The notes under the pieces: model-generated
What the model saw: only the letters and a program-made list of their open reading frames with translations
The model's database searches: none
What the model was told of the DNA's origin: nothing
Shown here: in pieces, positions 3,293 through 31,516 of the stretch
Position numbering within the stretch: the first letter of the stretch is position 1
Layout of the letters: each line of letters begins with the position of its first letter
Translations under genes and position numbers: made by a program
Assembly (NCBI GenBank): GCA_034189135.1
Contig: JAXHVO010000029.1
Coordinates: forward strand, 1 to 36,704
Direction: 5' to 3'
From: Thermodesulfobacteriota bacterium
GTDB taxonomy: Bacteria > Desulfobacterota > Desulfobacteria > Desulfobacterales > JAUWMJ01
Length of the DNA stretch: 36,704 nucleotides

Positions 3293-4759
3293 ATGACAAA
3301 CAATTACAGAGATTTTGGCGAGTCTTCAGTGGTCGATAACCAGCGCAAACTATCACAATTTGACAATATCACAGAGGAACTCATTCTAACAGCAATCGAT
3401 AACATCTATGACAGCGTTATTCTCATAAACACTGACGGAATCATTCAGTTCATGAGCAAAAATTATGAGGATAGATTTATGACATCAAGGAAAAAGGCTA
3501 TTGGACAGCACATTACTACACTCATTCCAGATGCCCGCCTTCCTAGAGTCTTAGAAACCGGGAAAGCGGAGATAGATTTTGCTGCTAAAATAAACGGCAG
3601 ATTTCGGATTATCTCCCGGATTCCTTTGAAAAGGAAGGGGCAGGTAATCGGTGCGCTCGGGAAAGTGATGTTTTGGAAAAGAGAGAAGATTTTGGATTTC
3701 TATAACTATTGGAAGGTGTCTCAGCCCAAGGCAGAAAGGCATTCCCTTTATGATTTTTCTTCGTATGATATTGAATTAGCTGACATAATTGGTAAATCAG
3801 CTGAAATTAAACGTTCCAAATCTGTAGCTGCTCTGGCGGCCCAAAACGATTGCAGCGTCTTGATAGAGGGTGAGTCCGGCACCGGTAAAGAATTATTTGC
3901 TAAGGCTATTCATCGGATAAGCCGCCGAAGGGAAAATGCCTTTGTCTGCGTCAACTGCGCAAGCATACCCCACGAACTTTTCGAATCCGAACTTTTTGGA
4001 TATAAGCCAGGAGCCTTTACAGGCGCTTCTATGAAGGGAAAAATCGGAAAGTTTGAGGCAGCTCACAAGGGCACGATTTTCCTCGATGAGATCGGCGACC
4101 TGGATCTGAGTATTCAGTCAAAACTATTACGAACGCTTCAGGAAAAGGAAATTGAGAAGATCGGCACCCGGCATCCGATAAAGATAGATTTCAGGGTAAT
4201 CTGTGCCACGAACCAAAAGATCAAACAGCAGGTTCAAAAAGGATTATTTAGGTTAGACCTTTACCACCGAATAAACGAGTTTGAGATCGAACTTCCTCCA
4301 CTGCGTACCATCAAAGAGGACATTCCTCTTCTTGTCGACTATTTCATGAATATCCTGAGGGAGGAGGCCCGGAACAAGAGAAATGTGATCTCGGTATCTA
4401 AAGATGTCTCATGCATGCTGCAGAATTATGACTGGAAGGGCAACATTCGGGAACTTAAAAATGTCATTCAGAGAGCGTTTGTTTTCTGCATGGGCTCTCA
4501 AATCGAAATAGAGGATCTTCCTCCAAACTTTATTAAAACTGTTTCGGACTCTGTTTCGAATAAATTTTCCTCCAAGAAGCCGATTCTTTCACTAAAGTGT
4601 GTTACTGAACTGGCCGAAAAGCAGGCGATCATCGATACTTTAAGGCTTACCGGAAACAACAAGGTAAAGGCCGCAAGGTTATTAGATATTCACCGTACAA
4701 GTCTCTATCAGAAGTTAAAAAAATATGGTCTTGACAAACCAGAGCCTACCCGGAATTAA
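3293..4759 (+). CDS. Sigma-54-dependent transcriptional activator (PAS, AAA+, Fis-type HTH)
   Basis: 488 residues. A PAS-type sensor domain lies at about residues 28-125. The AAA+ domain follows with Walker A GESGTGKE (193-200), the sigma-54-contacting motif GAFTGA (240-245), Walker B TIFLDEIGDL (261-270) and the arginine-finger block FRLDLYHR (319-326). A Fis-family helix-turn-helix covers about 445-485. There is no receiver domain, so it probably responds to a small molecule through the PAS domain rather than to a kinase. The start has a strong ribosome-binding site (GAGGAGG). The two -24/-12 promoters downstream (5013 and 20198), each with an identical dyad about 220 bp upstream, are the obvious targets. 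The gene is divergent from the IclR gene. Confidence 0.95.
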   Translation: MTNNYRDFGESSVVDNQRKLSQFDNITEELILTAIDNIYDSVILINTDGIIQFMSKNYEDRFMTSRKKAIGQHITTLIPDARLPRVLETGKAEIDFAAKINGRFRIISRIPLKRKGQVIGALGKVMFWKREKILDFYNYWKVSQPKAERHSLYDFSSYDIELADIIGKSAEIKRSKSVAALAAQNDCSVLIEGESGTGKELFAKAIHRISRRRENAFVCVNCASIPHELFESELFGYKPGAFTGASMKGKIGKFEAAHKGTIFLDEIGDLDLSIQSKLLRTLQEKEIEKIGTRHPIKIDFRVICATNQKIKQQVQKGLFRLDLYHRINEFEIELPPLRTIKEDIPLLVDYFMNILREEARNKRNVISVSKDVSCMLQNYDWKGNIRELKNVIQRAFVFCMGSQIEIEDLPPNFIKTVSDSVSNKFSSKKPILSLKCVTELAEKQAIIDTLRLTGNNKVKAARLLDIHRTSLYQKLKKYGLDKPEPTRN

Positions 4760-5209: not shown

Positions 5210-6283
5210 ATGATTAAACAATTTTCATGGAAAAAAATAGTTGGCTTGTTGGGCGTCCTTATTTTGGCGGTATTTGCAGGACAGATTGTTTTTAATGGAG
5301 AAGCGGTAGCTGCAGAGAAACAAAAATACAAGAAGGTAACTCTTGTCATAAACACCTGTACGGGTAGGGGAACGGACGCATATTTGTGGGGAAAGAAAAT
5401 TGCTGAGTTGACCAAGAAGTATACTGACGGGAGAGTGAGAGTTAAAGTTTTTGCAAGAGGGGAAGTATACAAGACATATCATGATATATCAAAGGCCCTT
5501 TTCAGCGGGGGCAGCGATATGATGATCAATGTTCATTCAAGTTTTGTCACTGCCGGCGTTAAAAAATATGGGATCTTTGCCGTACCCGGCCTGCTTGTTC
5601 CATCGCCTGAAGAAAAATTTTTTGGTGAACGTGTTAGCCGTTTCTGGAAAGATCCTAAAGGGGGTGGTGTGCTCCGGCGTGAATGTGAGGCAAAAGGCGT
5701 GAAGCTGATCGGTGACATGGCTGAGACATTTCCCGTTGTCCTTTTTTTCAAAAAGTCTTGTAGGATGGATGAAGTTAAGGGGCTCAAACTTCGTGTGGCT
5801 GCGAGCAAGGGTTACAGGCTCGTCATGGAACATCTGGGAATTGTTGCTGTGCCGGTCCCATATGCCGATACTTATACCGGCCTGCAGCAGGGATTAATTG
5901 ATGGTGCCGTTACCGGTACACAATATTATAATCACGGGAAGTGGTATGAGGTTTGTCCCTATGTAATGGAAATGCCCATCAATACAATTACACTTACGTT
6001 TGCTGCTAATTTAAAAAAATGGAACAGCCTCAGTAAGCAACTCAGAGATCTCCTTGAAAAGGTGGTAGCTCCTGAAGCCCATCAGTATGTTACCGAACTG
6101 ATTGATAATAAAATGTCGACTATGAAAGGCGAATTAGAGGGAAAAGGCGTTACATTTTATAGATGGTCTGATGAGGAGAGCAAGGCACTGGATAACTGGT
6201 ATCCCCAATGCTGGAACCAGTTCCGTAGCGACTATGGTGACACCCTTGTTGATGCGGCCATGCGAGCGAGGAATCTTCGTTAA
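5210..6283 (+). CDS. dctP: TRAP transporter solute-binding protein, DctP family
   Basis: 357 residues. It has an N-terminal signal peptide (hydrophobic stretch IVGLLGVLILAVFAG, cleavage probably after EAVAA near residue 35) and a DctP-type binding fold. Diagnostic segments are the central MDEVKGLKLRVAASKGYR, which includes the substrate-carboxylate arginine region, and GLQQGLIDGAVTGTQYY. It would deliver an organic acid from the periplasm to the membrane subunits encoded just downstream. The ribosome-binding site AGGAGGAG is strong. It is the first gene after the sigma-54 promoter at 5013, so uptake is induced together with catabolism. The ligand cannot be told from sequence. Confidence 0.93.
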   Translation: MIKQFSWKKIVGLLGVLILAVFAGQIVFNGEAVAAEKQKYKKVTLVINTCTGRGTDAYLWGKKIAELTKKYTDGRVRVKVFARGEVYKTYHDISKALFSGGSDMMINVHSSFVTAGVKKYGIFAVPGLLVPSPEEKFFGERVSRFWKDPKGGGVLRRECEAKGVKLIGDMAETFPVVLFFKKSCRMDEVKGLKLRVAASKGYRLVMEHLGIVAVPVPYADTYTGLQQGLIDGAVTGTQYYNHGKWYEVCPYVMEMPINTITLTFAANLKKWNSLSKQLRDLLEKVVAPEAHQYVTELIDNKMSTMKGELEGKGVTFYRWSDEESKALDNWYPQCWNQFRSDYGDTLVDAAMRARNLR

Positions 6284-6432: not shown

Positions 6433-6954
6433 TTGGAAAACCGATTTGTTTCAATTATAGACAGGTATGAAAAGTGGCTTAGAAGTATCGGAAAGGTCGT
6501 TGACACCCTATCCGCATATTTATTTTTAGCGGTCACCCTTTTTGTGGTTATTGAAGTATTCTGCCGCTACTTTTTTAAAAGCCCGCACGACTGGTCCGAC
6601 ATCATGGTTGTTTACACTGTTTTGTTTGTCGTCTTTCTTAACATCGGTGCGGTAGAAGAGGAGGAAAGACATATATGCCTGGATCTAGTCAATCTAAAAC
6701 TCCGTGACAAATGGAAGCGCAGAACGGATATGTTCAATTGTCTGGTTTCTTTTTCGGCATGCGGTATCATGGCATATTTTGTTTTTAACAACTTTATCTA
6801 TCTTGTTCGTGCCGGCGGTGGTTATGAGACAAGCATACCGATGCCGGACTGGCCACCATCTCTTGCCATGCTCATGGGTATGATAATGGGTATGATCGTG
6901 AGCCTGGGAAAACTGTTTAGACTGGTTTTAGACAGGCCGGTCGGCAAAGATTGA
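6433..6954 (+). CDS. dctQ: TRAP transporter small membrane subunit, DctQ family
   Basis: 173 residues with four predicted transmembrane helices and the family pattern VEVFCRYFF...W in the first half (FCRYFFKSPHDWSDI). The start codon is TTG, supported by GGGGGGAG four bases upstream; no ATG fits the conserved N-terminal length. It forms the membrane complex with DctM (6994). The 149-bp gap after the binding-protein gene shows no terminator. Sodium-driven carboxylate uptake is the family role. Confidence 0.9.
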   Translation: MENRFVSIIDRYEKWLRSIGKVVDTLSAYLFLAVTLFVVIEVFCRYFFKSPHDWSDIMVVYTVLFVVFLNIGAVEEEERHICLDLVNLKLRDKWKRRTDMFNCLVSFSACGIMAYFVFNNFIYLVRAGGGYETSIPMPDWPPSLAMLMGMIMGMIVSLGKLFRLVLDRPVGKD

Positions 6955-6993: not shown

Positions 6994-8280
6994 ATGGAAT
7001 ATTCTTTGGTTATAGGCATTGGTCTGATTATTGTAGCTTTTAGCACAGGAGCTCCCATGTTTGCAGCCATGACCTTGGGGACTACAGTGCTTTTTATCAG
7101 CTATGCGCAATTACCGGGTCTGAGTATGGCTCAACAGGCGATAAGTTCGATAAGCAGTTTTACCCTGGTTGCCATACCCCTTTTTATCCTGCTTGGAAAT
7201 ATTATGGCAAGGTCTGGCGCAGCAGCCGCCCTGTTTGATCTGGTAAGGGTTTTTCTCGGACATTTAAGGGCGGGACTGGGAATGGTGACTGTATGGGTGG
7301 CGGCGTTGTTTGGCACCATGTGTGGTTCCGGGGTGGCCACGGCTGTGGCTGTAAGCAGCATTGTGGTTCCGGAAATGACAAAATCAGGTTATAAACGGGA
7401 GGAATGCGCTGCAATTTGCGGGGCTTCGGGACCGCTGGGTCTGCTTATTCCGCCAAGCGTGGGTGCCATCATTCTGGCGGAGATTCTTGAAGTGCCGGTT
7501 GGAAAGGTCTTTGCAGCTGGTGTTTTTCCCGGTATTTTGACCGCAGCTTTGCTCTCCATTGTCTGCTACATCAAGAATCGTAACAACCTCGATATTAAGA
7601 TTGAACGTGAGCATACATGGAAGGAACGGAGAGTCGCGATTTGGCGGTCCTTACCGACCCTGCTGATCCCAATGTCCCTTTTTGGTGTGATATACGGCGG
7701 AATAGCGACACCCACTGAGGCAGCCGGAACATCCTGCGTCATAGCCCTTATTGTTGGGTTCCTGTTCTATGGCAAGATCAAATGGAAGGACATGAAGGAT
7801 ATCGCTCGCAGCTCTCTGATTTCCACAACGTCTATTTACTGCATCGTATTCGGTGCCGTTATTTTCGGGCGTTCACTCGCCTATATGGAAATTCCTCAAA
7901 ACATAGCAATGCTCACAATGGAGTTGGCGCTCAGTCCTCTCACTTTCATGTTTTTCTTTTTGGTAATATTTTTTCTGTTGGGCATGATTTTTGATGCCTT
8001 TGCTCTCATGTATGTCTGCCTGCCGCCACTGGTGTCAACCTTTAGCCATTTCGGTTTTGATCCGGTATTTATTGCCATCCTTTTTATTCAAATCGTGATT
8101 GTTGGCCAGTTAACTCCGCCGGTGTGCATAACACTGTATGCCGCTGCTTCCGGTGCGGGAGCCCAATCAAGTTCCACGATAAGGGCGGCGTTGCCCTACC
8201 TGATCGCTGCAATAATCAGTTGTATACTGGTTTTAATTTTGCCCCGGATAGCGCTTTTTTTGCCGGGTTTGTTAAAATGA
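6994..8280 (+). CDS. dctM: TRAP transporter large permease subunit, DctM family
   Basis: 428 residues, the standard length, with about 12 hydrophobic helices. Recognisable blocks include IPLFILLGNIMARSG, the GSGVATAVAVSSIVVPEM segment and PLGLLIPPSVGAIILAE in the first half, and the repeat-related VGQLTPPVCITLYAA near the end. It is the ion-coupled translocation subunit. The order P-Q-M is canonical and the ribosome-binding site AAGGAGAA is good. Two lipoate-ligase-like genes follow after an 87-bp gap without a visible terminator. Confidence 0.95.
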   Translation: MEYSLVIGIGLIIVAFSTGAPMFAAMTLGTTVLFISYAQLPGLSMAQQAISSISSFTLVAIPLFILLGNIMARSGAAAALFDLVRVFLGHLRAGLGMVTVWVAALFGTMCGSGVATAVAVSSIVVPEMTKSGYKREECAAICGASGPLGLLIPPSVGAIILAEILEVPVGKVFAAGVFPGILTAALLSIVCYIKNRNNLDIKIEREHTWKERRVAIWRSLPTLLIPMSLFGVIYGGIATPTEAAGTSCVIALIVGFLFYGKIKWKDMKDIARSSLISTTSIYCIVFGAVIFGRSLAYMEIPQNIAMLTMELALSPLTFMFFFLVIFFLLGMIFDAFALMYVCLPPLVSTFSHFGFDPVFIAILFIQIVIVGQLTPPVCITLYAAASGAGAQSSSTIRAALPYLIAAIISCILVLILPRIALFLPGLLK

Positions 8281-8367: not shown

Positions 8368-9498
8368 ATGACTGAAAAATGGAGACTAATCGAACTTGAG
8401 GCTGAGTCCGTGGCACATTTGAACATGTCTGTACGGCCGGCAATCACAAGAACGGTGAGTGAGGGAAAAGCCGGGAGCACGCTGGTTATAGCGACATTTG
8501 AGAAAAAATGCGTTGGGATTTCCTACTACAACGATGCCTTTAAAGATGTAGACATTAAGGCAGCCCGAAAACTGGGAATATCGTTCAAAAGGGGCGCAAT
8601 AGGCGGAGGAGGGTCGCTTTATATAGACACCGGCATGATGTTTTGTCTCCTATACCTTGATCGAAAAAGCCGCCTGGTGCCGCAGTCTGACGAATTGATC
8701 ATTATGAAAGTGATGGCCGGAGTTGCTGACGAATTCAGTAATGCCTTTAAAGTCCCGATCAGGTTTCGTCCCTTGAACGATGGTGAGATTTGGGATTTTA
8801 AAAATAAAATGTGGAAGAAGTTAATTCCATCCAGCATTGTCGGTATGGGGGATGCCATCATAGTCGCCGTGGCGATACAGGTAACACCAAGCGATGTCGA
8901 TATCGCACAGAAAGTGATCACGCCTCCCAGTGAAAAGTTTACCGACAAACAGGTCAAAAGCGTTTCTGAGCGTATCGGTAGTTTTGAAACCGCCATGGAA
9001 AAAGCACCTTCAATGGATGAATTGGGGAAAGCCGTCCGTTCGGCTGTGGAAAATAGTTTTAATGTTGCGTTTTATCCAGGTGAACTTACACCGCTTGAGA
9101 AAGTCTATAGTGAAGAATCGCTTCGACTTTATGATAATGATAAATGGCTTTATAATAGATCTGAATTAAAATTTGGAGATATTGGAACGGAAGAGTGCAT
9201 CGGAGAAAAGATCATTAAGGTGCCGGGCGGCCCCTTGCTGAGGGTAACTTTGGTGCGCCATGGTGATCTCCTGAGGGACATCCTGTTCACCGGCAGCCTT
9301 CATGCTTCACCTAATGATGCTTTTAAAATGTTGGAAGATCTTTTAGGGGGCATCAAGCTAAGCGGAGAGAATATCAGAGACATAGTGGAAGAATTTTACC
9401 AAAGAGATATTAAGACACCCATGATTACAAAGGAGATAGTATGTGAAGCGATTTTGATGGCGGCTGAGAACAGTCGAAAAGTGGCTAACCAATTATAA
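8368..9498 (+). CDS. Lipoate-protein ligase A-like protein (copy 1)
   Basis: 376 residues. By eye it follows the whole LplA two-domain plan. The N-terminal catalytic domain has GGGGSLYID (about 79-87) at the place of the LplA motif RRxSGGGAVxHD, and RPLNDGEIW (134-142) at the place of the ND motif. The C-terminal accessory domain has a block (RHGDLLRDILFTGSLHASP, 297-315) resembling the LplA segment with DSLNPAP. The catalytic-lysine region is altered: a Lys-Lys pair is separated from the later G-x-G by five inserted residues. The family adenylates a carboxylic acid and transfers it to a protein lysine. No lipoyl-domain protein, E2 or GcvH is encoded in the window, so the acceptor or substrate is open. 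A close paralog lies 13 bp downstream. Confidence 0.7.
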   Translation: MTEKWRLIELEAESVAHLNMSVRPAITRTVSEGKAGSTLVIATFEKKCVGISYYNDAFKDVDIKAARKLGISFKRGAIGGGGSLYIDTGMMFCLLYLDRKSRLVPQSDELIIMKVMAGVADEFSNAFKVPIRFRPLNDGEIWDFKNKMWKKLIPSSIVGMGDAIIVAVAIQVTPSDVDIAQKVITPPSEKFTDKQVKSVSERIGSFETAMEKAPSMDELGKAVRSAVENSFNVAFYPGELTPLEKVYSEESLRLYDNDKWLYNRSELKFGDIGTEECIGEKIIKVPGGPLLRVTLVRHGDLLRDILFTGSLHASPNDAFKMLEDLLGGIKLSGENIRDIVEEFYQRDIKTPMITKEIVCEAILMAAENSRKVANQL

Positions 9499-9511
9499 AG
9501 GAGAAATTGAA

Positions 9512-10633
9512 ATGGAAGAAAAATGGCGGTTTCTTGAGATGGATGTACCAAGTTATGTTGATATGAGCGTTACCCTAAGACCGGCTATAGCGAAGGCCAA
9601 GAGCGAGGGTAAGACAGCAAACACAGTTGTTATTTGCAGAATGAAAGAGAAAAGCCTGGGGATTTCCTATTATAGTGATTCCATGAAAGATGTTGACATA
9701 AAGACGGCTGAAAAAATGGGGATTGATGTGAAACGACTGGGTTTATCCGGCGGCGGGTCGGTTTTCATAGACGATAGTTGTCCTCTCTGCCTTGTTTATG
9801 TCGACAGAAACGATCCAAATTTGATTCAGCCTGACGAATTGCTGATGATGAAATTTTTATCAGGTATTGCGGATCAAATGAGCAAAGCTTTTGAGGTTCC
9901 GATCAGGTTTCGTCCCCTGAACGATGGTGAGATATGGGATATGGAATTGAAAAAGTGGAAGAAAATCATACCGGCCAGTATTTCCGGGATTGGGTCGGCT
10001 ATTCAGATCGGAGCGGGTGTACAGATCAGGAGCACAGATGCGAAAATCGCCCAGAAGATTATTACACCGCCTGCTGAAAAGTTTGTGGATAAACAGATAA
10101 AGAACATTGAAGAGCGCATCGGAAGTCTGGAAGGTTATATGGGAGAAGCGACTCCTTCTGTGAAAGAAGTGAGCAATGTCTTGAAAGTGACGGTAGAAGA
10201 ATGTTTTGGTATCAAGCTGGTGCCGGGTGAGCTGACGAATCTGGAGAAGGAATACATCGAGGAATCCAGAAAATTATATGACAATGATAACTGGCTCCAC
10301 AACAGGTCCGAACGAAAGTTCGGAAAAATCGGGCCGGGAGCAAGCAAGGGCGAGGCGGTGGCAAAAGTACCAGGAGGGCCTCTGCTGCGGGTAACATTGC
10401 TTAGAAAGGGTGATCATCTGCAAGATATCCTTTTTACAGGCAGTCTTCATGCCAGCCCTGTTGATGCCTTTAAAAAAATGGAAGATTTTCTGAAAGGAAT
10501 CAAACTGAACCCGAACGAAGTGAAGGCTAAAGCGAAAGAATTCTATAAGGATAGTAATATAAAAACACCGATGATTACTTATGATTTTGTCGCAAATACG
10601 ATTTTCAATGCTGCAGAAAACAGCCGGCAGTAA
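9512..10633 (+). CDS. Lipoate-protein ligase A-like protein (copy 2)
   Basis: 373 residues, clearly paralogous to the preceding protein over its full length (shared ISYY.D, VPIRFRPLNDGEIWD, KVPGGPLLRVTL, FTGSLHASP). The LplA-type motif is LSGGGSVFIDD (about 78-88), closer to the consensus than in copy 1. The lysine region reads KKIIPASISGIGSA, again with an insertion before the SG. It starts 13 bp after copy 1 with GGAGAA upstream, so the two are co-translated and may act as a heteromer. It precedes the BcrC/BcrB-like genes. Protein-lysine acylation or simple acid adenylation are both possible; which one is unknown. Confidence 0.7.
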   Translation: MEEKWRFLEMDVPSYVDMSVTLRPAIAKAKSEGKTANTVVICRMKEKSLGISYYSDSMKDVDIKTAEKMGIDVKRLGLSGGGSVFIDDSCPLCLVYVDRNDPNLIQPDELLMMKFLSGIADQMSKAFEVPIRFRPLNDGEIWDMELKKWKKIIPASISGIGSAIQIGAGVQIRSTDAKIAQKIITPPAEKFVDKQIKNIEERIGSLEGYMGEATPSVKEVSNVLKVTVEECFGIKLVPGELTNLEKEYIEESRKLYDNDNWLHNRSERKFGKIGPGASKGEAVAKVPGGPLLRVTLLRKGDHLQDILFTGSLHASPVDAFKKMEDFLKGIKLNPNEVKAKAKEFYKDSNIKTPMITYDFVANTIFNAAENSRQ

Positions 10634-10696: not shown

Positions 10697-11839
10697 ATGG
10701 AAACAATCTTGAAAAAAATTGCGGATATAACATCTGATCCATACGCCTATGTTGTCGGCATTAAGAAGGATAGCGGTAAAAAGATTATAGGCTGCTTTCC
10801 GATGTTTGTACCCGAAGAAATTATACATGCTGCAGGGATGATGCCGGTTGTAATCTGGAGGGGTAACGAGCTTGTAACCTGGGGGCATTCCCACGTGCCA
10901 CCATATGACTGCGGTATTACAAGAAGTTTTGTTGATGATGCTGTTAAAGGAAGGCTCGAGTTTATGGACGGCATGGTATTTCATATCAGGCAGTGCCTGC
11001 AGGCCGGAGAATTTCCACTTATCATGGAACGAAATGTAAAGCCTGATTATCTTAAAATACTGAACTTTCCGCCTATTTATCCCGGAGCTGCCGCAGCGGA
11101 ATTTACGATGCTGGAGATGGAATCCTTTAAATCATCCATTGAAAAATTTGCAGGAAAAAAGATAAATGATGATGATCTTGAAAACAGCATTAAGGTATAC
11201 AATAAAAATCGTGATTTGCTTGAAAAAATTTATCAGATAAGAAGAAAAAAACCGGAAATATTAAAAGCCCGGCAAGTGATGCAGATTGTATGGTCAAGCA
11301 TGATGATGCCAAAGGAAGATAATAATGATCTTCTTGAGGAACTTATTGCCGGCATGGAGAAAGCTGAAGTAAAATCGCGTCCTGAAAGTCTAAAAGTTAT
11401 TCCTGTGGGATGTCTTTGCCAGACGATGCAATTCGACATTTTAGATATGATCGAAGATTTGGGAATGATTATTCCTGATGACGATCTGTTTGTCGGCTCA
11501 CGTTATTTTGCAAATAAGGTCCGGCTAAACGGCAATCCGCTTGAATCGCTTGTTGGTCGCTATTTGAAAAAAACTCCTCTTTGTCCTACAAAGGGGATCT
11601 GGGATATTCACTGGGGAGATGAGGCGATAAAAAAAATGAAGGCCAATAACGCTAAAGGCATTATCAGCGTCCTTGTAAAATATTGTCCCCCCCATTCATG
11701 TTATTACCCTGATTTTAAGAGTAAAATGGAAAGCGAGGGCGTGCCGGAAATCATGATACAGATAGAACATGAGATAATTTCGCTTGAAAGCGTGAAAACA
11801 AGGTTGCAATCATTTGCCGAAATACTGGGGGGTGTATAA
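10697..11839 (+). CDS. Benzoyl-CoA reductase / 2-hydroxyacyl-CoA dehydratase family, BcrC/HgdB-like subunit (copy 1)
   Basis: 380 residues, matching BcrC and HgdB lengths. Typical blocks are GCFPMFVPEEIIHAAGMMPV (33-52), PYDCGITRSF with Cys72, the D-G-M-V-F-x3-Q-C segment with Cys99, and near the C-terminus KYCPPHSCYYPDFKSK followed by IEHEIISLESVKTRLQSF. The conserved cysteines are those that bind the [4Fe-4S] cluster in the family. The enzymes accept one high-energy electron from an ATP-driven activase and reduce, or dehydrate, an acyl-CoA. The stop overlaps the next start by one base (TAATG), so it is coupled to the BcrB-like partner. A paralog lies at 29102. No activase is adjacent to this copy. 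Confidence 0.88.
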   Translation: METILKKIADITSDPYAYVVGIKKDSGKKIIGCFPMFVPEEIIHAAGMMPVVIWRGNELVTWGHSHVPPYDCGITRSFVDDAVKGRLEFMDGMVFHIRQCLQAGEFPLIMERNVKPDYLKILNFPPIYPGAAAAEFTMLEMESFKSSIEKFAGKKINDDDLENSIKVYNKNRDLLEKIYQIRRKKPEILKARQVMQIVWSSMMMPKEDNNDLLEELIAGMEKAEVKSRPESLKVIPVGCLCQTMQFDILDMIEDLGMIIPDDDLFVGSRYFANKVRLNGNPLESLVGRYLKKTPLCPTKGIWDIHWGDEAIKKMKANNAKGIISVLVKYCPPHSCYYPDFKSKMESEGVPEIMIQIEHEIISLESVKTRLQSFAEILGGV

Positions 11840-13098
11840 TGAATAGTCATTACAAGGTAAACCGTCTTGAAACTACTAATGAAATAAGACCTTTGGTGGA
11901 TAAGCACTGGTCTGACTTGAGAGCAGCCAAGGAGAGAGGAGAACAGGTGGCGTGGGCATCCGGCCCGTCGTTTATCTTCGCTTATGCCATGGGAATGAAA
12001 TGCCATTTCATGGCAGGTTACGCTGCTTACTGCGGTGGAATCGGGGCAGGTGAAGAAGTGCTGAGAGTGGCGGAGTTGGCCGGGGATCTCCCTGAATCAT
12101 GCTCATATCACAGGTTGCACATGGGCATGGGCGAGGCGATAAAACGCGAAATTCCCATAAACCCACAAGCGATTCTTCCAATGCCCGACTTGATGGTAAT
12201 AGGCCGTCTATGTCCTGAGATGTCTCATTATGCGGAGGGGCTTTACCGGCGCTTCGGCGTTCGCGTGTTGCCTATTGACATGCCTGTTGTTTTTGACAGA
12301 AAAGATATGGCCAGGATCAGGAATTTTGTTTACAAACAGTTTCAAGAAACGGTTATACCGACATTTGAAGAGGTTTGCGGAAAACCTTTTGATTATGACA
12401 GGATGAGTGAAATTTTGAAAGTGCTGAAAGAGGTTGCCACTTTAAGAAATCAATGCTGGGAATATTTTAAAACCAAACCCACGACTTGGACCCTGTGGGA
12501 TTACGGCGTAAGCATAGCGCCGGTCTTTTATCTTATGGGAAATCCCGTTGGCGTTGAATATTATAAAAAACTGCTCAAAGAGCTTTCTGAAAGAAAGAAA
12601 AAAGGCATTCCGGCTATAGGCCCGGACGGTGAAAAATACCGGTTATACTGGGACGGCTGGCTGCCGTGGGCATTTTTAGGAAAATTTATGCGAAAGTTTA
12701 CACCATATGGAGCTGTTTGCCTTTGCGGCAAATACCCCTGGGAATTTTTCCCCCATCCGGAACTTATCGATCCCGAGCATCCTGTAGAGACATGGACGGA
12801 TCTATATTATGGAGAAGAGAGCCATCTTATGTATAATTTTTCACCAAAAGGCACCATCGAATTAATCGGTGAGCTTATCGAAGATTATTCTCTTGACGGA
12901 ATGGTTATGTTCTCTTCCAAAACGTGCCGGGTCATGAACCTTTCTCACCATGAAATTATCGATGTTCTGGAAAAAAAATATGGTGTTCCGGGAGTTATCA
13001 TAGAAGGTGACATGATTGATTCGTCGATGATTTCAGATTCACAGATAGAGACAAGACTTGAAGCTCTTTATGAAATGATAGATTCGAGACGAATGTAG
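11839..13098 (+). CDS. Benzoyl-CoA reductase / 2-hydroxyacyl-CoA dehydratase family, BcrB/HgdA-like subunit (copy 1)
   Basis: 419 residues, shorter than HgdA (about 480) and close to BcrB. Three family cysteines are visible: CSYHRLHMGM, GRLCPEMSHYAEGLYRR and FSSKTCRVMNLS. The C-terminal signature GDMIDSSMISDSQIETRLEA corresponds to the end of this fold. It should pair with the upstream subunit, each carrying a [4Fe-4S] cluster. The ribosome-binding site GGGGGGTG lies inside the preceding gene. Whether the reaction is ring reduction or alpha/beta-dehydration of a 2-hydroxyacyl-CoA cannot be decided; the C-then-B order matches bcrCB of Thauera-type reductases. A close copy lies at 30249. Confidence 0.88.
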   Translation: MNSHYKVNRLETTNEIRPLVDKHWSDLRAAKERGEQVAWASGPSFIFAYAMGMKCHFMAGYAAYCGGIGAGEEVLRVAELAGDLPESCSYHRLHMGMGEAIKREIPINPQAILPMPDLMVIGRLCPEMSHYAEGLYRRFGVRVLPIDMPVVFDRKDMARIRNFVYKQFQETVIPTFEEVCGKPFDYDRMSEILKVLKEVATLRNQCWEYFKTKPTTWTLWDYGVSIAPVFYLMGNPVGVEYYKKLLKELSERKKKGIPAIGPDGEKYRLYWDGWLPWAFLGKFMRKFTPYGAVCLCGKYPWEFFPHPELIDPEHPVETWTDLYYGEESHLMYNFSPKGTIELIGELIEDYSLDGMVMFSSKTCRVMNLSHHEIIDVLEKKYGVPGVIIEGDMIDSSMISDSQIETRLEALYEMIDSRRM

Positions 13099-13696: not shown

Positions 13697-15154
13697 ATGG
13701 TTGGTATCCGTTCGTATGGGGCATATGTTCCACGCTATCGATTAAATAGAAAAAAAATATTTGAAGCCATGGGCTGGCTGAATTCGACAAATCTAGCTAT
13801 GTCTACGGGAGAGAAAGCTGTTGCGAATTATGATGAGGATAGTATTACCATGGCTGTGGCTGCAGGTATGAACTGTATCGGCCTGATTGAAAGAAAAGAT
13901 TTAGATGGTGTATATTTTGGATCTACCTCCATGCCTTTTCTGGAGAGACAGAATGCAGGTATCATAGCAACAGCCCTTGGGATGGACGAAAACGTAAGAT
14001 CTGCCGATTTTTCAGGGTCTTTAAAATCCGGTACTGCTGCTCTTATTTCATCCTTAGAGGCTGTGGGTTCCGGCGGCACTAAAAATATGGTTGCATGCGC
14101 GTCCGACTGCAGACTGGGAAAGATGGGGAGCCCCCAGGAGATGCTTTTCGGCGATGCCGCGGTGGCTTTTCTGATAAGTGATGAAGATGTTGTTGCTGAA
14201 TATAAAGGCTCTTTTTCTGTTACCTGTGATATCGGCGATCATGTACGGGGAAAAAACACACAGTTTGACAGACAGTGGGAGGATAGATGGATCAGAGATA
14301 TGGGATATGAGAGCCTGATTCCCAAGGCGGTTAATGGACTTTTGAACAGATATGATCTTTCAGTAGATGATTTCGCAAAAATAATTTATAGCTGCTACTA
14401 TAGGGCCGCAAGGAAAAAAATAAACAAAAAACTCGGTTTTGATCCTGAAAAAGTGCAGGGCATTATGATGGACGAAATCGGAGAGATGGGATCAGCTCAG
14501 TCTCTTGTAATGCTTGCCTCCGCTTTGGAGACCGCGGAACCGGGCGATAAAATTCTGGTTGTAGCTTATGGAAGCGGATGCGATGCCCTTTATTTTGAAG
14601 TTACGGAAAAGATAAAAGATCTTAAGGAACTTTGTGGGGTTTCTTATCATTTGGAAAACAGAGCCGAACTGGACAGGTACGAAAAATATTTGGCCTGGCG
14701 TCATATTATTCCAATAGATACCGGATTAAGGGGCGAAGAGGATTTGTTGACCCGCTGGTCGTTTATGTTCAGAGTCAGTAGGGCGGCGCTCGCCTTTTGC
14801 GGGAGTAAATGCAAGAAGTGCGGCACACCACAGTTCCCCCCCCAGAGGGTATGCGTCAATCCTTCATGCGGAGCAATTGATGAGATGGAGGATTATTTTT
14901 TTTCAGACAAAACCGCAAGGATTGGGAGCTTTACCGGTGACAACCTGGTGGTATCCATGAACCCCCCCCAGATATACGGCAATATTTTTATTGATGGTGG
15001 GGGGAAGGTGATGATGAATTTTACCGACTGTGACCTTGATGCACTCAAGGTGGGCTCACCTCTTTATTTTAGTTTCAGGATTAAATATTTCGATTCCAAA
15101 AGAGACTTATACAGATATTTCTGGAAAGCGATACCGATGAAGGAGGTGAAGTAA
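13697..15154 (+). CDS. HMG-CoA synthase-like thiolase-fold protein fused to a DUF35 Zn-ribbon/OB-fold domain
   Basis: 485 residues. Residues 1-300 follow the HMG-CoA synthase / KAS III thiolase fold (GIRSYGAYVPRYRL at the start, FGDAAVAFLI near 151-160). Residues 365-485 form a DUF35 rubredoxin-like Zn ribbon plus OB fold with cysteines at 372, 375, 386 and 391 (CX2C-X10-CX4C). The synthase active-site residues appear lost: SGSLKSGTAAL (106-116) has Leu where the nucleophilic Cys of xxACYGGTAAL should be, GSTS replaces GTES, and YSCYY replaces the FHxPF histidine segment. The next gene, a thiolase, starts two bases after its stop, so the two probably form a thiolase-DUF35 complex, as in benzoylsuccinyl-CoA thiolase BbsAB. 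A structural or CoA-shuttling role is inferred. Confidence 0.85.
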   Translation: MVGIRSYGAYVPRYRLNRKKIFEAMGWLNSTNLAMSTGEKAVANYDEDSITMAVAAGMNCIGLIERKDLDGVYFGSTSMPFLERQNAGIIATALGMDENVRSADFSGSLKSGTAALISSLEAVGSGGTKNMVACASDCRLGKMGSPQEMLFGDAAVAFLISDEDVVAEYKGSFSVTCDIGDHVRGKNTQFDRQWEDRWIRDMGYESLIPKAVNGLLNRYDLSVDDFAKIIYSCYYRAARKKINKKLGFDPEKVQGIMMDEIGEMGSAQSLVMLASALETAEPGDKILVVAYGSGCDALYFEVTEKIKDLKELCGVSYHLENRAELDRYEKYLAWRHIIPIDTGLRGEEDLLTRWSFMFRVSRAALAFCGSKCKKCGTPQFPPQRVCVNPSCGAIDEMEDYFFSDKTARIGSFTGDNLVVSMNPPQIYGNIFIDGGGKVMMNFTDCDLDALKVGSPLYFSFRIKYFDSKRDLYRYFWKAIPMKEVK

Positions 15155-15155
15155 A

Positions 15156-16361
15156 ATGGCAACAGGGATAAAAAATAAAGTCGTGATTCTGGGTATGGGC
15201 TGCAGCAAGTTCGGCGAACGATGGGACAAGGATGTCGATGATTTAATGATAGAATCGTTTCAAGAATGTATAAAGGATGCGGGTATAGAAAAAAAGGATA
15301 TCGATGCCTGCTGGTATGGATTATACTTTGACGAGATAAGCGCAGGTAAATCAGGCATCCCCCTTTCCCAGGCATTGAAACTTCCCTTTATTCCGGTTAC
15401 ACGTGTTGAAAATAAATGCGCAACAGGAAGCGAGGCATTCAGGGGCGCATGTTACGGAGTTGCATCCGGAGCCTATGATATCTGTTTAGCCATGGGTGTC
15501 GAAAAGTTGAAGGATACCGGATTCGGGGGTCTGCCGGGGGGCTCCGTAGACGGGCAGATGGAGGTGCTTCTTGGAGCAGACAGGACCGCACCCGGCGCCT
15601 TTGCCCAGCTTGCTTCCGCATATGAAGCCGCCTTCGGTATTCCGATGAAAAAGATAAAAGAGGCCATGGCACATATATCCTGGAAGAGTCATCAGAACGG
15701 TTTTAAAAACCCCAGAGCGCATTTGAAAAATACACCTTCCATAGAGAAAATACTCAATGCGCCGATGATAGCTTATCCTTCGGGGCTTTTCGACTGTTGC
15801 GGAGTGAGTGACGGTTCTGCCGCGGCTATTGTAACTATTCCTGAAATTGCAGAAAGCATAAAGAAGAACCAGGAACTGGTTTACGTTAAATCGGTCCAGA
15901 TTGCATGCAGTTCAGGTGAAGAGGGGATGTATACGGACTGGGACGGGTCAAATATAATATCTACGACCAGGGCTGTGACAAAGGCTTATGAGGAAGCAGG
16001 AATCAAGAATCCCAGGGAAGAGATAAGTATGATGGAAGTTCATGACTGTTTTTCCATAACCGAGCTTGTCACTATGGAAGATCTGCAAATATCTTCCAGG
16101 GGCAAGGCTGTAGATGATGTGTTAAACGGCTTTTATGATCTGGACGGTACCATACCCTGCCAACCGGACGGAGGGCTGAAATGTTTCGGCCATCCCATAG
16201 GGGCATCAGGAATAAGGATGCTTTATGAGATGTACAGCCAGCTTTTGGGAAGATGGCCTGAAGATCGTAGAGTCAAAGATCCTAAGTTTGGTCTTACCCA
16301 TAATCTGGGAGGATTTCCAAACAGAAATGTCGTTAGTGTCTCTATAATCGGAAAAAAATAA
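15156..16361 (+). CDS. Thiolase (acetyl-CoA acetyltransferase, SCP2/BbsB-like)
   Basis: 401 residues. The acylated nucleophile is Cys88 in VENKCATGSEA. The second-half motifs are MEVHDCFSITEL (His296, Cys298) and FGHPIGASG (His346), with the final HNLGG block. This is the SCP2-thiolase arrangement rather than the classical FadA one. It would cleave a 3-oxoacyl-CoA with CoA, closing beta-oxidation. The upstream DUF35 fusion protein is its likely partner. The ribosome-binding site AAGGAGGTG overlaps the end of that gene. All catalytic residues I can recognise are present, so this is the likely active subunit. Confidence 0.92.
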   Translation: MATGIKNKVVILGMGCSKFGERWDKDVDDLMIESFQECIKDAGIEKKDIDACWYGLYFDEISAGKSGIPLSQALKLPFIPVTRVENKCATGSEAFRGACYGVASGAYDICLAMGVEKLKDTGFGGLPGGSVDGQMEVLLGADRTAPGAFAQLASAYEAAFGIPMKKIKEAMAHISWKSHQNGFKNPRAHLKNTPSIEKILNAPMIAYPSGLFDCCGVSDGSAAAIVTIPEIAESIKKNQELVYVKSVQIACSSGEEGMYTDWDGSNIISTTRAVTKAYEEAGIKNPREEISMMEVHDCFSITELVTMEDLQISSRGKAVDDVLNGFYDLDGTIPCQPDGGLKCFGHPIGASGIRMLYEMYSQLLGRWPEDRRVKDPKFGLTHNLGGFPNRNVVSVSIIGKK

Positions 16362-16518
16362 ACGGGGCGTATAATGTGAGCGCGTATCTTCAGGTAGCGA
16401 GAAAGGGCGAAAAATATTTTGACCTGTGCGGACATGATTGGACACAACCTGAGGAACTAACGGCTAAAATCTCAAAGCAGCATTGGTTGTTGGGGAAGTC
16501 GTGAATAAGGAGAACAAA

Positions 16519-17301
16519 ATGAAATTTGAAACAATCATATATGAAATAAAAGATAATATCGGGTGGATTGCTTTAAACAGGCCTGAAGTACTTAATGCTA
16601 AAAATGAAATTTTAAGGAGAGAACTGAGCACTGCGGCTGACATGGCCGGGAGAGATGATGAAGTTCATGTTATTGTTATTACAGGCACAGGGGAAAAAGC
16701 CTTTTGCGCAGGCGCAGATATTAATATGTTTACAGAGTGGAACACGGCTGATGCTATTGCGAGTATAAAAAGTGAAAAACGGGAAGTCCAAAATGTAAGG
16801 GAATTGATCAAACCTGTAATAGCCATGGTAAACGGACTTGCCCTTGGGGGAGGGTGTGAACTGGCCTTGGCCTGCGATATTATAGTCGCTTCGGAAAAGG
16901 CGCGTTTCGGGCTGCCTGAAGTAAGTGTCGGGGTGATACCGGGTGGGGGAGGAACCCAGGTTCTGCCCAGACTGGTGGGAGAGAAAAAAGCAAAAGAGCT
17001 TATCCTGACGGGAGATTTAATTTCTGCCGAGGAAGCGCTGAGTTTAGGTATGATTAACAAGGTAGTTTCCCATGACCAGTTGAGGGATGCGGTTGAGAAG
17101 ATAGCCAGGAAAATAAGGGCCAAATCTCCGGTAATATTAGAGCTGGCAAAGATTGCGGTGAATAAATCTCTGGATACCCCCTTGTCGGCAGGTGTTGAGA
17201 GTGAAAAAGAACTTTTTGCCATGTGCTTCGGCACAGATGACCAGAAAGAAGGCGCAAGGGCTTTTCTGGAAAAAAGGAAACCGGATTATAAAGGAAAATA
17301 G
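16519..17301 (+). CDS. Enoyl-CoA hydratase/isomerase (crotonase family)
   Basis: 260 residues from ATG 16519, chosen because AAGGAG precedes it and MKFETIIYEIKDNIGWIALNRP is a normal family start; an upstream in-frame ATG at 16483 would add 12 unlikely residues. The oxyanion-hole segments AFCAGAD and NGLALGGGCELAL are present. Both hydratase glutamates are visible (GGGCELAL and FGLPEVSVG). It adds water to a 2-enoyl-CoA in the cytoplasm. It follows the thiolase gene by 157 bp and is separated from the next dehydrogenase gene by a palindromic element. Confidence 0.93.
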   Translation: MKFETIIYEIKDNIGWIALNRPEVLNAKNEILRRELSTAADMAGRDDEVHVIVITGTGEKAFCAGADINMFTEWNTADAIASIKSEKREVQNVRELIKPVIAMVNGLALGGGCELALACDIIVASEKARFGLPEVSVGVIPGGGGTQVLPRLVGEKKAKELILTGDLISAEEALSLGMINKVVSHDQLRDAVEKIARKIRAKSPVILELAKIAVNKSLDTPLSAGVESEKELFAMCFGTDDQKEGARAFLEKRKPDYKGK

Positions 17302-17314
17302 AAAATATATATAA

Positions 17315-17588
17315 TCAGAAATTTACAAACTCATTATGAGGTTAACTTAAGGCATAGGGCAATTATATTTAAAAGTGTCTGAAACTCGCGTATTAGTAAG
17401 CGTAAAGAAAGAACTTGGATCAATCCTTTCATATAAAACAAGCTTACGACGGCATTTTCCGACTCATAGAAAACATTATTTAAATTGTCGTTCTTTCTTA
17501 ACGCTTACTAATACGCTCAAACAGTCAGCCATTTTAAATCTAATCACCCTATACCTCAAGTTGCTTTTTGCAGTTTGTAAATTTCTGA
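17315..17588. mobile_element. 274-bp near-palindromic MITE-like element
   Basis: Perfect 17-bp terminal inverted repeats, TCAGAAATTTACAAACT (17315-17331) and its complement (17572-17588), bound the element. It is flanked by a TAA direct repeat (17312-17314 and 17589-17591), consistent with a target duplication. Inside, a second 26-bp inverted repeat matches 25 of 26 (17389-17414 and 17490-17515), and the stretches between also pair imperfectly, so almost the whole element can fold into one hairpin. It encodes no protein. It fills the 318-bp gap between the hydratase and dehydrogenase genes. Confidence 0.8.
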
Positions 17589-17619
17589 TAATTCAGAGTG
17601 CATTATTCCCGACAAGACT

Positions 17620-18771
17620 ATGAATATTGGTGATCTAAAGACAGTTTCAGTTATTGGTGCAGGCGACATGGGGCATGGGATCGCAGAGGTAGCTCTTCTT
17701 GCTGGCTATAAAGTTTTTTTAAGAGACATTAAACAGGAGTTCGTGGACAAAGGGGCACAACGGATAAAAGACAGTCTCAAGAAGCTCCTTGCAAGGGGAA
17801 ATCTGGCACAGGAGCTTTATGATACGATAGAGTCCGGTTTGCTTGCCCCTGTAATGGACATGAAAGATGCTGTAAAGGATGCCGACCTTGTAATCGAAGT
17901 TGTTCCTGAAGTAGTTGGATTAAAAAAAGATGTTTTTGCAGAGGTCGAATCTTTTGCACCGCATCATGCTATTCTCGCTTCCAATACATCTTCGATATCG
18001 ATAACTGATATTGCAACAGCTACCACAAGACCTGAAAAAGTTGTTGGACTCCACTTTTTTAATCCTGTTGTGATTATGAAGCTGGTAGAGGTTATCAAGG
18101 CGGAAAAAACCTCCGAAGAAACGATGGATGTGGCATATGAGTTCTGCCTCAAGATCAACAAGATTCCGGTAAGAGCGGAAAAGGATGTTCCAGGTTTTAT
18201 AGTAAACCGTATCAATGCTCCGGCCCATATACTCCGAGGCTGTTTTCTGGATGATGGAATCGTCGAGCCGGAAGAACTCGATGCGTTGATGAGAAAAGAG
18301 GGTTTTCCCATGGGACCTTGCGAACTACTTGATTTCGTGGGACTGGATGTTCACAGGCATGTATTATTATACTATGCGGAAAATCTACATTCCGATTATA
18401 AACCTTACCGTGCTTTGGATGAACTAGTTAATGCCGGAAATTATGGGAAGAAAACCGGAAAAGGATTTTACGACTGGTCAAAAGGGAGACCTGATATTGA
18501 TCTTTCAAAGGCAACGGACAAGATTGATCCCCTGGATATCACTGCTGTTCAGATCAATGAAGCCACCAAGCTCGTGGAAATGGGGGTTTGTTGTCTAGAA
18601 GATATCGACGTTGCGATTTTAAATGCCGGCGGGCTCAAAGTCGGTCCTATGGAAATTGCTAAAAAGATTAATCCAGCGGAACTTACCTGTCGTTTGGAAA
18701 AACTGGACGAAAAATTCAAGAAAGAGATTTTTCAACCGACCGATACGATCAGGAAAGGTACATACCGGTAG
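17620..18771 (+). CDS. 3-hydroxyacyl-CoA dehydrogenase, NAD-dependent (long form)
   Basis: 383 residues. The NAD-binding motif is GAGDMG (13-18). The catalytic Ser/His/Asn set is visible in SNTSSIS (121-127), LHFFNP (His145) and FIVNRIN. Two consecutive 3HCDH C-terminal domains explain the extra length over the form of about 285 residues. It oxidises a 3-hydroxyacyl-CoA to the 3-oxo product used by the thiolase. No convincing ribosome-binding site precedes ATG 17620, which lies 31 bp beyond the MITE-like element, so the insertion may have altered its expression. MNI at the start agrees with the family. Confidence 0.93.
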   Translation: MNIGDLKTVSVIGAGDMGHGIAEVALLAGYKVFLRDIKQEFVDKGAQRIKDSLKKLLARGNLAQELYDTIESGLLAPVMDMKDAVKDADLVIEVVPEVVGLKKDVFAEVESFAPHHAILASNTSSISITDIATATTRPEKVVGLHFFNPVVIMKLVEVIKAEKTSEETMDVAYEFCLKINKIPVRAEKDVPGFIVNRINAPAHILRGCFLDDGIVEPEELDALMRKEGFPMGPCELLDFVGLDVHRHVLLYYAENLHSDYKPYRALDELVNAGNYGKKTGKGFYDWSKGRPDIDLSKATDKIDPLDITAVQINEATKLVEMGVCCLEDIDVAILNAGGLKVGPMEIAKKINPAELTCRLEKLDEKFKKEIFQPTDTIRKGTYR

Positions 18772-18897
18772 TATAAGGCTTTAACCATCACAAATCTGAA
18801 CCATGCAGTGTGTTAAGGAAGGATTCGATTTGGAAATGAACCTGTAGGGCAAACACCGGGCATGTGAACTCTTACGCATGAAGACAGGAGAGAGCGA

Positions 18898-19755
18898 ATG
18901 AATATTGATAAGGTTTTTATTATCGGCGCGGGTTTGATGGGTAGCGGCATAGCTCAGGCTTGTGCCCAGTCCGGCATTGAGGTGATTCTTAACGACATTA
19001 ACCGGAAGGCTGTAGATAATGCCCTGAAGAACATTGAGTGGTCTGTCAGCAAGTTTGTAGAGAAAGGGAAGCTTCCTGAAACTAAAAAGACTATTCTGGG
19101 CCGCATTAAAACGGCTACCGATATGTCACAGGTTGCTGAGGCCGCTTTGATCATTGAGGCCGCGTTTGAAAACCTTAAGGTTAAGCAGGAGATATTCAGG
19201 AAACTAAATGAATGCTGCGATCATGACGTTTTGTTGGCCAGCAATACCTCTACCATACCCATCACAGAACTTGCAGCCGTAACCGAACGTCCTGACAAAG
19301 TATTCGGCCTTCATTTCTTTAACCCTGTTCCAATGATGCAGGCGGTGGAGGTTATAAAGAGTGTCAGCACTTCAGAAGAAACTATGCAGGCCGGCATGGA
19401 TTTAGTCAGGAAAATAGGAAAGGAACCGATACGTGTAGAAAGTGATGTGCCGGGATTTTTACTTAACCGGATTAATCTTATAAGCTATGTTGAGGCGATT
19501 CGTCTATTTGAGCAGGGTATTGGGTCTGTTGAAGATATTGACAAAGGTTTCAGGCTTGCTTTCGGAAGAAAAATGGGACCGTTTGAGACCGGCGACATGG
19601 TTGGATTAGATGTATCTTATGGTGGTTTAAGTGCGATATATGAAGAAAGCAAGGATATTCGTTATTATCCTCCGCAGTTGTTAAGACGCAAAGTAAAGGC
19701 AGGTCAGTTAGGACGTAAGACAGGAAGGGGATGGTATAAATATACTAAAAGTTGA
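18898..19755 (+). CDS. 3-hydroxyacyl-CoA (3-hydroxybutyryl-CoA type) dehydrogenase
   Basis: 285 residues, the usual size of Hbd/PaaH-type enzymes. The NAD motif GAGLMG is at 10-15, the catalytic blocks are SNTSTIPI and LHFFNPVPMM, and FLLNRIN lies before the dimerising C-terminal domain. It is related to, but distinct from, the preceding dehydrogenase, which suggests two different hydroxyacyl-CoA intermediates. It starts after GACAGGAGAG and is the last gene of block A. The following 600-bp gap contains hairpins and the second sigma-54 promoter. Confidence 0.93.
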   Translation: MNIDKVFIIGAGLMGSGIAQACAQSGIEVILNDINRKAVDNALKNIEWSVSKFVEKGKLPETKKTILGRIKTATDMSQVAEAALIIEAAFENLKVKQEIFRKLNECCDHDVLLASNTSTIPITELAAVTERPDKVFGLHFFNPVPMMQAVEVIKSVSTSEETMQAGMDLVRKIGKEPIRVESDVPGFLLNRINLISYVEAIRLFEQGIGSVEDIDKGFRLAFGRKMGPFETGDMVGLDVSYGGLSAIYEESKDIRYYPPQLLRRKVKAGQLGRKTGRGWYKYTKS

Positions 19756-22893: not shown

Positions 22894-22917
22894 TAGATGT
22901 GAAGGAGAAATAAATAG

Positions 22918-24036: not shown

Positions 24037-24113
24037 TAGTGGCCTGAAACTTGGATAACGGTCCATCGTAACTGGAAGCAGTGAAGATTCAGAGCAGCAA
24101 AGGAGGTGATACC

Positions 24114-24908
24114 ATGGGGTTTGAGGAGATACTGTTTGAAAAGCGGGACGGCGTAGCGACGGTTACTCTGAACCGACCGGATCGATTAAATGCCTTTACA
24201 ACCGGCATGTATCAGAGACTTGCCGAAATTCTTGATGAAATTAAGAAAGACGATGAACTGGCAGTAATGGTCGTCACCGGTGCAGGAAAGGGATTTTGTG
24301 CTGGATCGGATGTTTCCGACCGTCTGGCGCGCCGGATGGAAAAGGGCTCTGAGGAAAGCCGTTTTGAAAGCCTGAAGCAGATTGGTGCCGTTGCTCTTGA
24401 TCTGGAGGATTTCGACAAGCCGATAATCGCCGCTGTCAATGGCGTTGCCGTTGGAGCCGGGCTTTCAGTCGCCCTTGCCGGTGATATTCGGATCGCCTCG
24501 GAAAAAGCGCGATTTGGCGCTGTATGGGTACGCGTCGGTCTCATTCCGGATTTGGGAGCCACCTACTCTTTGCCCCGAGTTGTCGGAATGGATAAGGCAA
24601 TGGAAATGACTCTAACAGGTGACCTTGTCAATGCAGAGGAGGCTCTGAAGATCGGCCTGGTGAGCCGTGTTTTGAAACATGATGAGCTGATGCCAAGGGC
24701 CGGTGAGCTGGCAGCCAGAATTGCAGAGGGCCCGGCCATAGCCATTGAGCTGACCAAACGAGGACTGCGAAGATCCTTGAACAACGACCTGAAGTCTCAG
24801 CTCGATTATGAAAGCTATGCTCAGAATATTTGTCGATATTCGACGGATCATAAGGAGGGGGTTCAGGCGTTTATCGAGAAAAGAAAACCTGAATTCAGGG
24901 GACGATAG
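24114..24908 (+). CDS. Divergent enoyl-CoA hydratase/isomerase family protein
   Basis: 264 residues from ATG 24114, selected because AGGAGGTGAT lies directly upstream. An in-frame GTG at 24081 would add 11 residues. The crotonase oxyanion elements are present (GFCAGSD, NGVAVGAGLSVAL). The two hydratase glutamates are not: GAGLSVAL replaces GGGCELAL and FGAVWVRVG replaces FGLPEVxVG. GLIPDLGATYSLPR carries an Asp at the position used by PaaG-like isomerases. It is therefore more likely an isomerase, hydrolase or C-C bond enzyme than a standard hydratase. It follows the ACAD pair and precedes a TRAP operon. Confidence 0.85.
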   Translation: MGFEEILFEKRDGVATVTLNRPDRLNAFTTGMYQRLAEILDEIKKDDELAVMVVTGAGKGFCAGSDVSDRLARRMEKGSEESRFESLKQIGAVALDLEDFDKPIIAAVNGVAVGAGLSVALAGDIRIASEKARFGAVWVRVGLIPDLGATYSLPRVVGMDKAMEMTLTGDLVNAEEALKIGLVSRVLKHDELMPRAGELAARIAEGPAIAIELTKRGLRRSLNNDLKSQLDYESYAQNICRYSTDHKEGVQAFIEKRKPEFRGR

Positions 24909-30247: not shown

Positions 30248-30248
30248 T

Positions 30249-31499: not shown

Positions 31500-31516
31500 T
31501 GATCGGAGGGTTAAAA

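Follow-up and report, generated by a model that had tools for sequence, protein, structure and literature searches.

The stretch of DNA analyzed here, which we call the window, comprises 36,704 nucleotides and represents contig 29 of a Thermodesulfobacteriota genome that totals 4.63 Mb. Its features are collected in Table 1. The window contains two neighboring genes, LA1 and LA2, that are separated by a gap of 14 bp, each with a clear GGAGG-type Shine-Dalgarno sequence ahead of it, and that code for proteins exhibiting 55% identity to each other. Synonymous sites were saturated when a dN/dS value was attempted for this pair. The two genes belong to a single co-directional run with the order DctPQM-LA1-LA2-HGD-D pair, in which the TRAP transporter genes (5210-8280) are located upstream and the HGD-D pair (10697-13098) downstream. 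This is the arrangement given in a preliminary description of this DNA, which had placed two full-length LplA-like proteins between a TRAP transporter and a BcrC/BcrB-like pair. The full length of both proteins is likewise borne out by intact open reading frames, by Pfam matches and, for LA1, by the alignment of its structural model with complete LplAs.

Table 1. Genes and gene groups of the window, with the basis of each assignment.
Feature	Position	Strand	Basis or remark
Sigma-54 activator with PAS domain, probable local regulator	3293..4759	+	
TRAP substrate-binding protein DctP	5210..6283	+	PF03480
TRAP small membrane subunit DctQ	6433..6954	+	PF04290
TRAP large membrane subunit DctM, ~90 bp 5' of LA1	6994..8280	+	PF06808
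LA1, LplA-like two-domain protein, 376 aa	8368..9498	+	Weak Pfam/NCBIfam matches, AF2 model and fold search, clade-invariant K151/D138/R75
LA2, tandem paralogue of LA1, 373 aa	9512..10633	+	ORF and profile matches
HGD-D subunit (HadC/BcrC-like), ~60 bp 3' of LA2	10697..11839	+	PF06050, 211 bits
HGD-D subunit (BcrB/HadB-like)	11839..13098	+	Profile matches
HMG-CoA-synthase-like domain fused to ChsH2-type zinc ribbon/OB fold	13697..15154	+	Profile matches; homologue near LA in L072
Thiolase (PRK06157 family)	15156..16361	+	Score above cut-off
Enoyl-CoA hydratase and two 3-hydroxyacyl-CoA dehydrogenases	16483..19755	+	
PLx, PaaK-like ANL protein, 393 aa	20369..21550	+	10 kb downstream of the LA genes
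Two acyl-CoA dehydrogenases and second enoyl-CoA hydratase	21742..24908	+	
Second TRAP system: TAXI-type binding protein and fused DctM	25418..28829	+	
Second HGD-D pair and the cluster's only activase	29102..32302	+	Profile matches
Two acyl-CoA dehydrogenases and ordinary AMP-dependent acyl-CoA ligase (ligase 35001-36629)	32444..36629	+	

The HGD-D pairs of this cluster score at most 205 bits against equivalog cut-offs of 421-750 bits for known BCR and HadBC subunits. For example, the subunit at 10697-11839 scores 196 bits with the NCBIfam HadC model (cut-off 700) and 172 bits with the BcrC model (cut-off 421). Two HGD-D pairs are present relative to a single activase. With two each of TRAP systems, HGD-D pairs and LAs, the cluster may serve two substrates. 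We also observed that the gene for the HMGS-like/ChsH2-type fusion directly adjoins the thiolase gene and that the same pair is present in the L072 cluster (4570-7189); this pair resembles the archaeal thiolase/DUF35/HMGS complex.

Profile searches place LA1 and LA2 near LplA and well away from its equivalog. The Pfam LplA-B_cat model gives 35.8 bits for LA1 and 25.5 bits for LA2 (cut-off 27), and the LplB small-subunit model matches the C-terminus of both proteins, whereas the scores with the TIGR00545 equivalog are 41.5 and 37.7 bits, respectively, relative to a cut-off of 280. The comparison with the LplA structure that the preliminary description had proposed was undertaken with LA1, for which an AF2 model was obtained with a pLDDT of 83.5. 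A fold search with this model aligned 310-330 residues with complete LplAs across the two-domain fold, with Z scores of 27.4 to 1vqz, 27.1 to 6jom, 26.3 to E. coli LplA (1x2g) and 23.4 to 2art, which contains lipoyl-AMP. LA1 is thus modeled as a full LplA fold, with a catalytic plus an accessory domain.

We aligned E. coli LplA with 31 members of the clade that contains LA1 and LA2 (the LA clade), which has a mean column identity of 44%. Residues K151, D138 (the Asp of the ND motif) and R75 (the first Arg of the RR pair), in LA1 numbering, are invariant in 31/31 members, and N137 (the Asn of ND) is found in 28 of them, so the lysine and ND motif of LplA are both retained by LA. K151 corresponds to residue 134 of E. 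coli LplA counting Met and occupies the same alignment column as K138 of Mhp-Lpl, which hydrogen-bonds the carbonyl of acyl-AMP (PMC7186572). The matching lysine of E. coli LplA is reported, in work cited by that paper, to be essential for adenylation as well as transfer. The preliminary description had seen an insertion between the lysine pair and the S/G-G motif. This is not observed in the alignment, where WKKLIPSS of LA1 aligns gap-free with KKIMGAA and GKKVSGAA. An insert of ~6 residues is instead located ahead of the lysine, between the ND motif (N137 D138) and K151, and longer loops at this site are also present in Thermoplasma and E. coli LplA.

The modification is in the lipoate-binding loop, where RRxxGGGxVxHD is replaced by KRGAIGGGGSLYID in LA1 and by KRLGLSGGGSVFID in LA2; the corresponding loop of Mhp-Lpl is RRDTGGGAIYLD. 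Both LA1 and LA2 follow the pattern KR...GGGS[LV][YF]ID, in which there is one extra residue, the second Arg is lost and the His is changed to Ile, so that RRxxGGGxVxxD is not matched. The position of the second Arg is occupied by G in LA1, by L in LA2 and by V or T in other close members, and this lost Arg was considered as a possible counterpart of the BirA residue whose loss frees biotinyl-AMP. The loop also varies by subfamily within the clade, with TTGGTIYTAKG, TGGAPYWADPG, NPGGAIWGPDG and QPYYVNVGYPG as examples. The earlier claim of a modified active site therefore holds for the rewritten lipoate-binding loop but not for the catalytic lysine and Asp, which are intact.

The distribution of the LA clade was analyzed in a phylum sample of 297 genomes, with membership assigned by tree. 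Members are present in 15 of these genomes, several of which have two to four copies. A phylogeny of these proteins had been suggested in the preliminary description; in the tree the 31 members separate from sLpl(AB), their closest relatives seen outside the clade. The long branch of E. coli LplA groups with another long branch, which leaves its exact placement unsure. sLpl(AB) is the LipS1/LipS2-linked ligase that occurs with LbpA in sHdr sulfur oxidisers (PMC6067878, PMC10332631), and one sLpl-type gene (G000:C45:18458) is present in the genome studied here. Two scans of genome contigs for LA relatives returned none and two loci only, respectively, a search of viral contigs returned no LA relative, and a search of plasmids returned only a 25% identical haloarchaeal lipoate ligase.

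The genes that surround the LAs differ from those that surround sLpl. TRAP genes are located within five genes of 12 of the 29 LA copies for which neighborhoods were available versus none of 15 sLpl copies (Fisher 0.003), and acyl-CoA genes within the same distance of 14/29 LA copies versus 1/15 sLpl copies (Fisher 0.007). Many LA loci have neither type of gene nearby. The window order DctQ-DctM-LA recurs in L055, DctM-LA is found in L040, L058 and L059, LA-DctPQM in L039 and LA-TAXI-TRAP in L038. The richest match to the window is L072, with the order carboxylase, B12-dependent mutase, HMGS-like gene, thiolase, hydratase, acyl-CoA dehydrogenase, LA, PLx, acyl-CoA dehydrogenase, second LA, NifU-like protein and TAXI-TRAP; two LAs in a single locus are also observed in L056. 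LipS-type radical SAM genes were observed only in the L060-L065 group of these loci, and the LA genes are not linked to LipS1/LipS2 and LbpA in the manner of sLpl. HGD-D pairs were found beside LplA-like genes in the window only, among the loci examined. This result bears on the survey of co-occurrence with BcrB/C-like genes that had been proposed. The recurrent partners are TRAP and PLx, and a link specific to BcrB/C-like genes is not supported, its presence in the window being incidental.

Several side observations were made in these neighborhoods. A NifU_N-like scaffold protein adjoins LA in two loci (L056, 9112-9507, and L072, 14819-15250), and a gene for aconitase X (L040, 1878-3128) lies directly 3' of a DctM-LA pair. 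In another genome (L107, G508), two sLpl copies share one stretch with GcvH-like proteins and a LipS-type radical SAM gene, forming an sHdr-like lipoate cluster.

The absence of a lipoyl-domain acceptor from the window, as had been stated, was confirmed by tblastn, which detected neither a lipoyl nor a GcvH protein across the window and 33 other LA/PLx loci. As many of these loci are short contigs, this absence is only as good as the length of each locus. The same search found a lipoyl protein in 7 of 14 sLpl-type control loci. The genome itself has several GcvH and lipoyl-domain proteins on contigs other than the window, and its other LplA/LipB-type genes are located on contigs 45 and 136 together with its two best GcvH matches. 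LA1 and LA2 are LplA-like proteins that probably do not function as lipoate ligases for this pathway.

The stronger finding of the locus is PLx, which is located 10 kb from the LA genes. PLx represents a family of ~400 aa proteins that adjoins LA in L035/L071, L051, L072 and L103 and that is two genes away in L056. It aligns with PaaK (4r1l) over nearly the whole chain (238 bits). In ANL enzymes, motifs of the A3, A5 and A10 type serve ATP binding and adenylation, while motifs of the A7 and hinge type bind ribose and mediate the change to the thioester-forming step. An alignment with 17 ordinary PaaKs from the same phylum, most of which keep the A3, A5, A7, A10 and hinge motifs, revealed that these two sets have fared differently in PLx. 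The A3 P-loop SSGTTG is changed to SPSGQD, TPTSRG or SPGPKG and the GK of A10 to GP, losses that are observed in every PLx copy spanning these motifs, and the A5 Glu is kept only in the window copy. The A7 motif RxRTGD and the hinge GRxDxM are both retained, with RxRTGD and the GRxD of the hinge invariant. PLx also has invariant motifs of its own, GPGES.R and KxKGxK, and K309 and K314 of its A8 loop (MxKxKGxKxxPSQ) are conserved in every PLx copy and missing from all 17 ordinary PaaKs. These two lysines are possible phosphate ligands or acyl acceptors. With its adenylation motifs lost, its thioester motifs kept and invariants of its own, PLx gives the impression of a half-enzyme under constraint and not of a gene in decay, and judged by its motifs it probably no longer uses ATP. 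An AF2 model of PLx built with two sequences had a pLDDT of 43. A further observation is an ORF in L035/L071 (1266-2486) in which the N-terminal half of PLx runs in frame into a TRAP DctM-like C-terminal part, through either an assembly misjoin or a deletion between adjoining genes.

We analyzed the co-occurrence of PLx and LA in the phylum sample and in an order sample of 291 genomes, using wide searches in which scoring was limited to the six top-ranking candidates of each genome. PLx turned up in 12 genomes across both samples, all of which contain LA. Its profile scores of 488-752 bits (277 for one truncated copy) are distinct from those of ordinary PaaKs, which reach at most 268. All 10 of the 297 phylum-sample genomes with PLx are among the 15 with LA (Fisher 2.4e-15), a value to be read with the construction of the profile from copies near LA, a bias that spares only the copies from f29 and from G408, which represent two families. 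Counted by family, PLx is present in 5/7 families with LA versus 0/89 without (3.4e-7), and in three families (f17, f19 and f25) it is found only in the genome that has LA. In the order sample, the only 3 of 291 genomes that have LA are also the only ones that have PLx. When the profile-source genomes are left out, 6/6 phylum-sample genomes are concordant (5.5e-10 by genome), all of them kin from the single family f29 and thus not independent; in the order sample G408 has both LA and PLx outside of the profile-source set. In f29, PLx is a single gene that is unlinked to the several LAs of these genomes. PLx is absent from five LA genomes (G175, G150, G026, G020 and G094) in which all candidates were scored, indicating that LA there acts without PLx or has another partner. 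Overall, the co-inheritance of LA and PLx suggests a shared job in the activation of imported acids.

The preliminary description had proposed that these proteins adenylate a pathway acid, acylate a lysine of a pathway protein or bind an acyl ligand. From sequence, adenylation appears to be the best-fitting of these options given the lack of a linked acceptor, the TRAP and acyl-CoA neighbors and the co-inheritance with PLx. An adenylating fold that retains its lysine, a partner that lacks adenylation only, an adjoining importer and downstream acyl-CoA enzymes together make a split acyl-CoA ligase the simplest reading, in which the imported acid is adenylated by LA and then converted to its CoA thioester by PLx; we favor this reading tentatively. 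LA1 and LA2 would then be LplA-derived enzymes that adenylate carboxylic acids for organic-acid uptake and catabolism and not for lipoylation. The acid would be brought in by the TRAP importer and bound by LA in a pocket formed by the subfamily-specific loop, where it would react with ATP to yield acyl-AMP, which PLx would take over and convert to acyl-CoA. A single PLx may serve several LAs of differing specificity, some of which adjoin their own TRAP importer. Adenylation by LA, the hand-over to PLx, CoA as the acceptor and the imported acid as the substrate are all steps that we infer. The complete form of this proposal, a two-protein acyl-CoA ligase of two unrelated folds in which the LplA fold carries out adenylation only, an ATP-blind PaaK carries out thioester formation only and one PLx is shared by several LAs, is possible and more tentative again. 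Several points argue against a split ligase. The replacement of the second Arg by G or L in LA1 and LA2, and by V or T in close members, could mean weaker adenylation, and the hand-over of acyl-AMP between two proteins would be unusual. The cluster already contains an ordinary acyl-CoA ligase. PLx is missing from five LA genomes and unlinked in f29, and many LA loci are without TRAP or acyl-CoA genes.

Two other readings keep LA as an enzyme that activates an acid and differ in the role of PLx. LA may acylate a protein lysine in the style of LplA, with PLx as the likeliest acceptor and the acid as a covalent prosthetic or carrier group. LplA chemistry does end on a lysine, and K309 and K314 in the A8 loop are specific to PLx, but these extra lysines may just bind the phosphate of CoA or AMP, the loci yielded no acceptor resembling a lipoyl domain, and a catabolic substrate fixed as an amide is lost to the pathway; we regard this reading as unlikely. 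An equally doubtful reading is that LA, on its LplA fold, carries out both steps of an acyl-CoA ligase by itself, first adenylating the acid and then using CoA as acceptor, while PLx acts as an accessory subunit, a regulatory subunit or a binder of acyl-CoA. This would leave unexplained the strong conservation of the A7 and hinge motifs in PLx, although it does account for the LA genomes without PLx and for LAs that adjoin TRAP genes with no ligase nearby.

The remaining readings dispense with acid activation for the pathway. It is improbable that LA1 and LA2 serve unlinked GcvH or E2 proteins as ordinary ligases of lipoate or octanoate. They do have the LplA fold and catalytic lysine, and GcvH and lipoyl-domain proteins are available in this genome, but the lipoate-binding loop is rewritten and the equivalog scores are 41 and 38 versus 280 bits. 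An ordinary lipoylation role is also made unlikely by the other LplA/LipB-type genes, which share contigs 45 and 136 with the best GcvH proteins, and by the fact that no clade member has a linked acceptor. Very unlikely is a role of LA as a non-catalytic sensor of the imported acid that tunes the TRAP system or local regulators, since its active-site K, D and first Arg are invariant in a clade whose mean column identity is 44% and no DNA-binding or signalling domain was found in LA. This reading takes its support from the TRAP genes that adjoin LA and from a histidine kinase and sigma-54 regulator that adjoin LA in L105 and are a few genes away in L035.

We know of no earlier case in which a biotin/lipoate-ligase fold and an ANL fold divide the two half-reactions of an acyl-CoA ligase between them, and the open-licence literature searched contained nothing on a lipoate ligase with TRAP, on a lipoate ligase with benzoyl-CoA reductase or on split acyl-CoA ligases. 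The proposal would be categorically new only if the split mechanism holds. If so, it would provide a function for a clade that databases would misleadingly label 'lipoate-protein ligase', and in uncultured Thermodesulfobacteriota the loop variants would represent modular activators, each specific for its acid. Should the mechanism prove wrong, a concrete and cheap biochemical test is still offered by the co-inheritance of LA and PLx and the link to TRAP.

Relative to known systems, LA resembles LplA (E. coli LplA, Thermoplasma LplA/LplB, TIGR00545), with which it shares the two-domain fold, the catalytic lysine, the ND motif, the first Arg of the RR pair and a lysine of the accessory domain. 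LA is unlike LplA in its rewritten lipoate-binding loop, in the loss of the His and, in LA1/LA2, of the second Arg, in having no neighboring lipoyl acceptor and in scoring far under the equivalog. The sLpl genes adjoin LipS-type radical SAM and GcvH-like genes, whereas LA often adjoins TRAP and acyl-CoA genes. The HGD-D pairs and activase of the window are in line with HadBC/BcrBC, but these pairs score far below every equivalog cut-off and linkage to HGD-D is not a general feature of the LA clade. Finally, in regards to PLx, its near full-chain alignment and its A7 and hinge motifs are those of PaaK (4r1l, 2y4o, 2y27), whereas the loss of the P-loop and of the A10 Lys, the loss of the A5 Glu outside the window copy and the motifs GPGES.R and KxKGxK set it apart.
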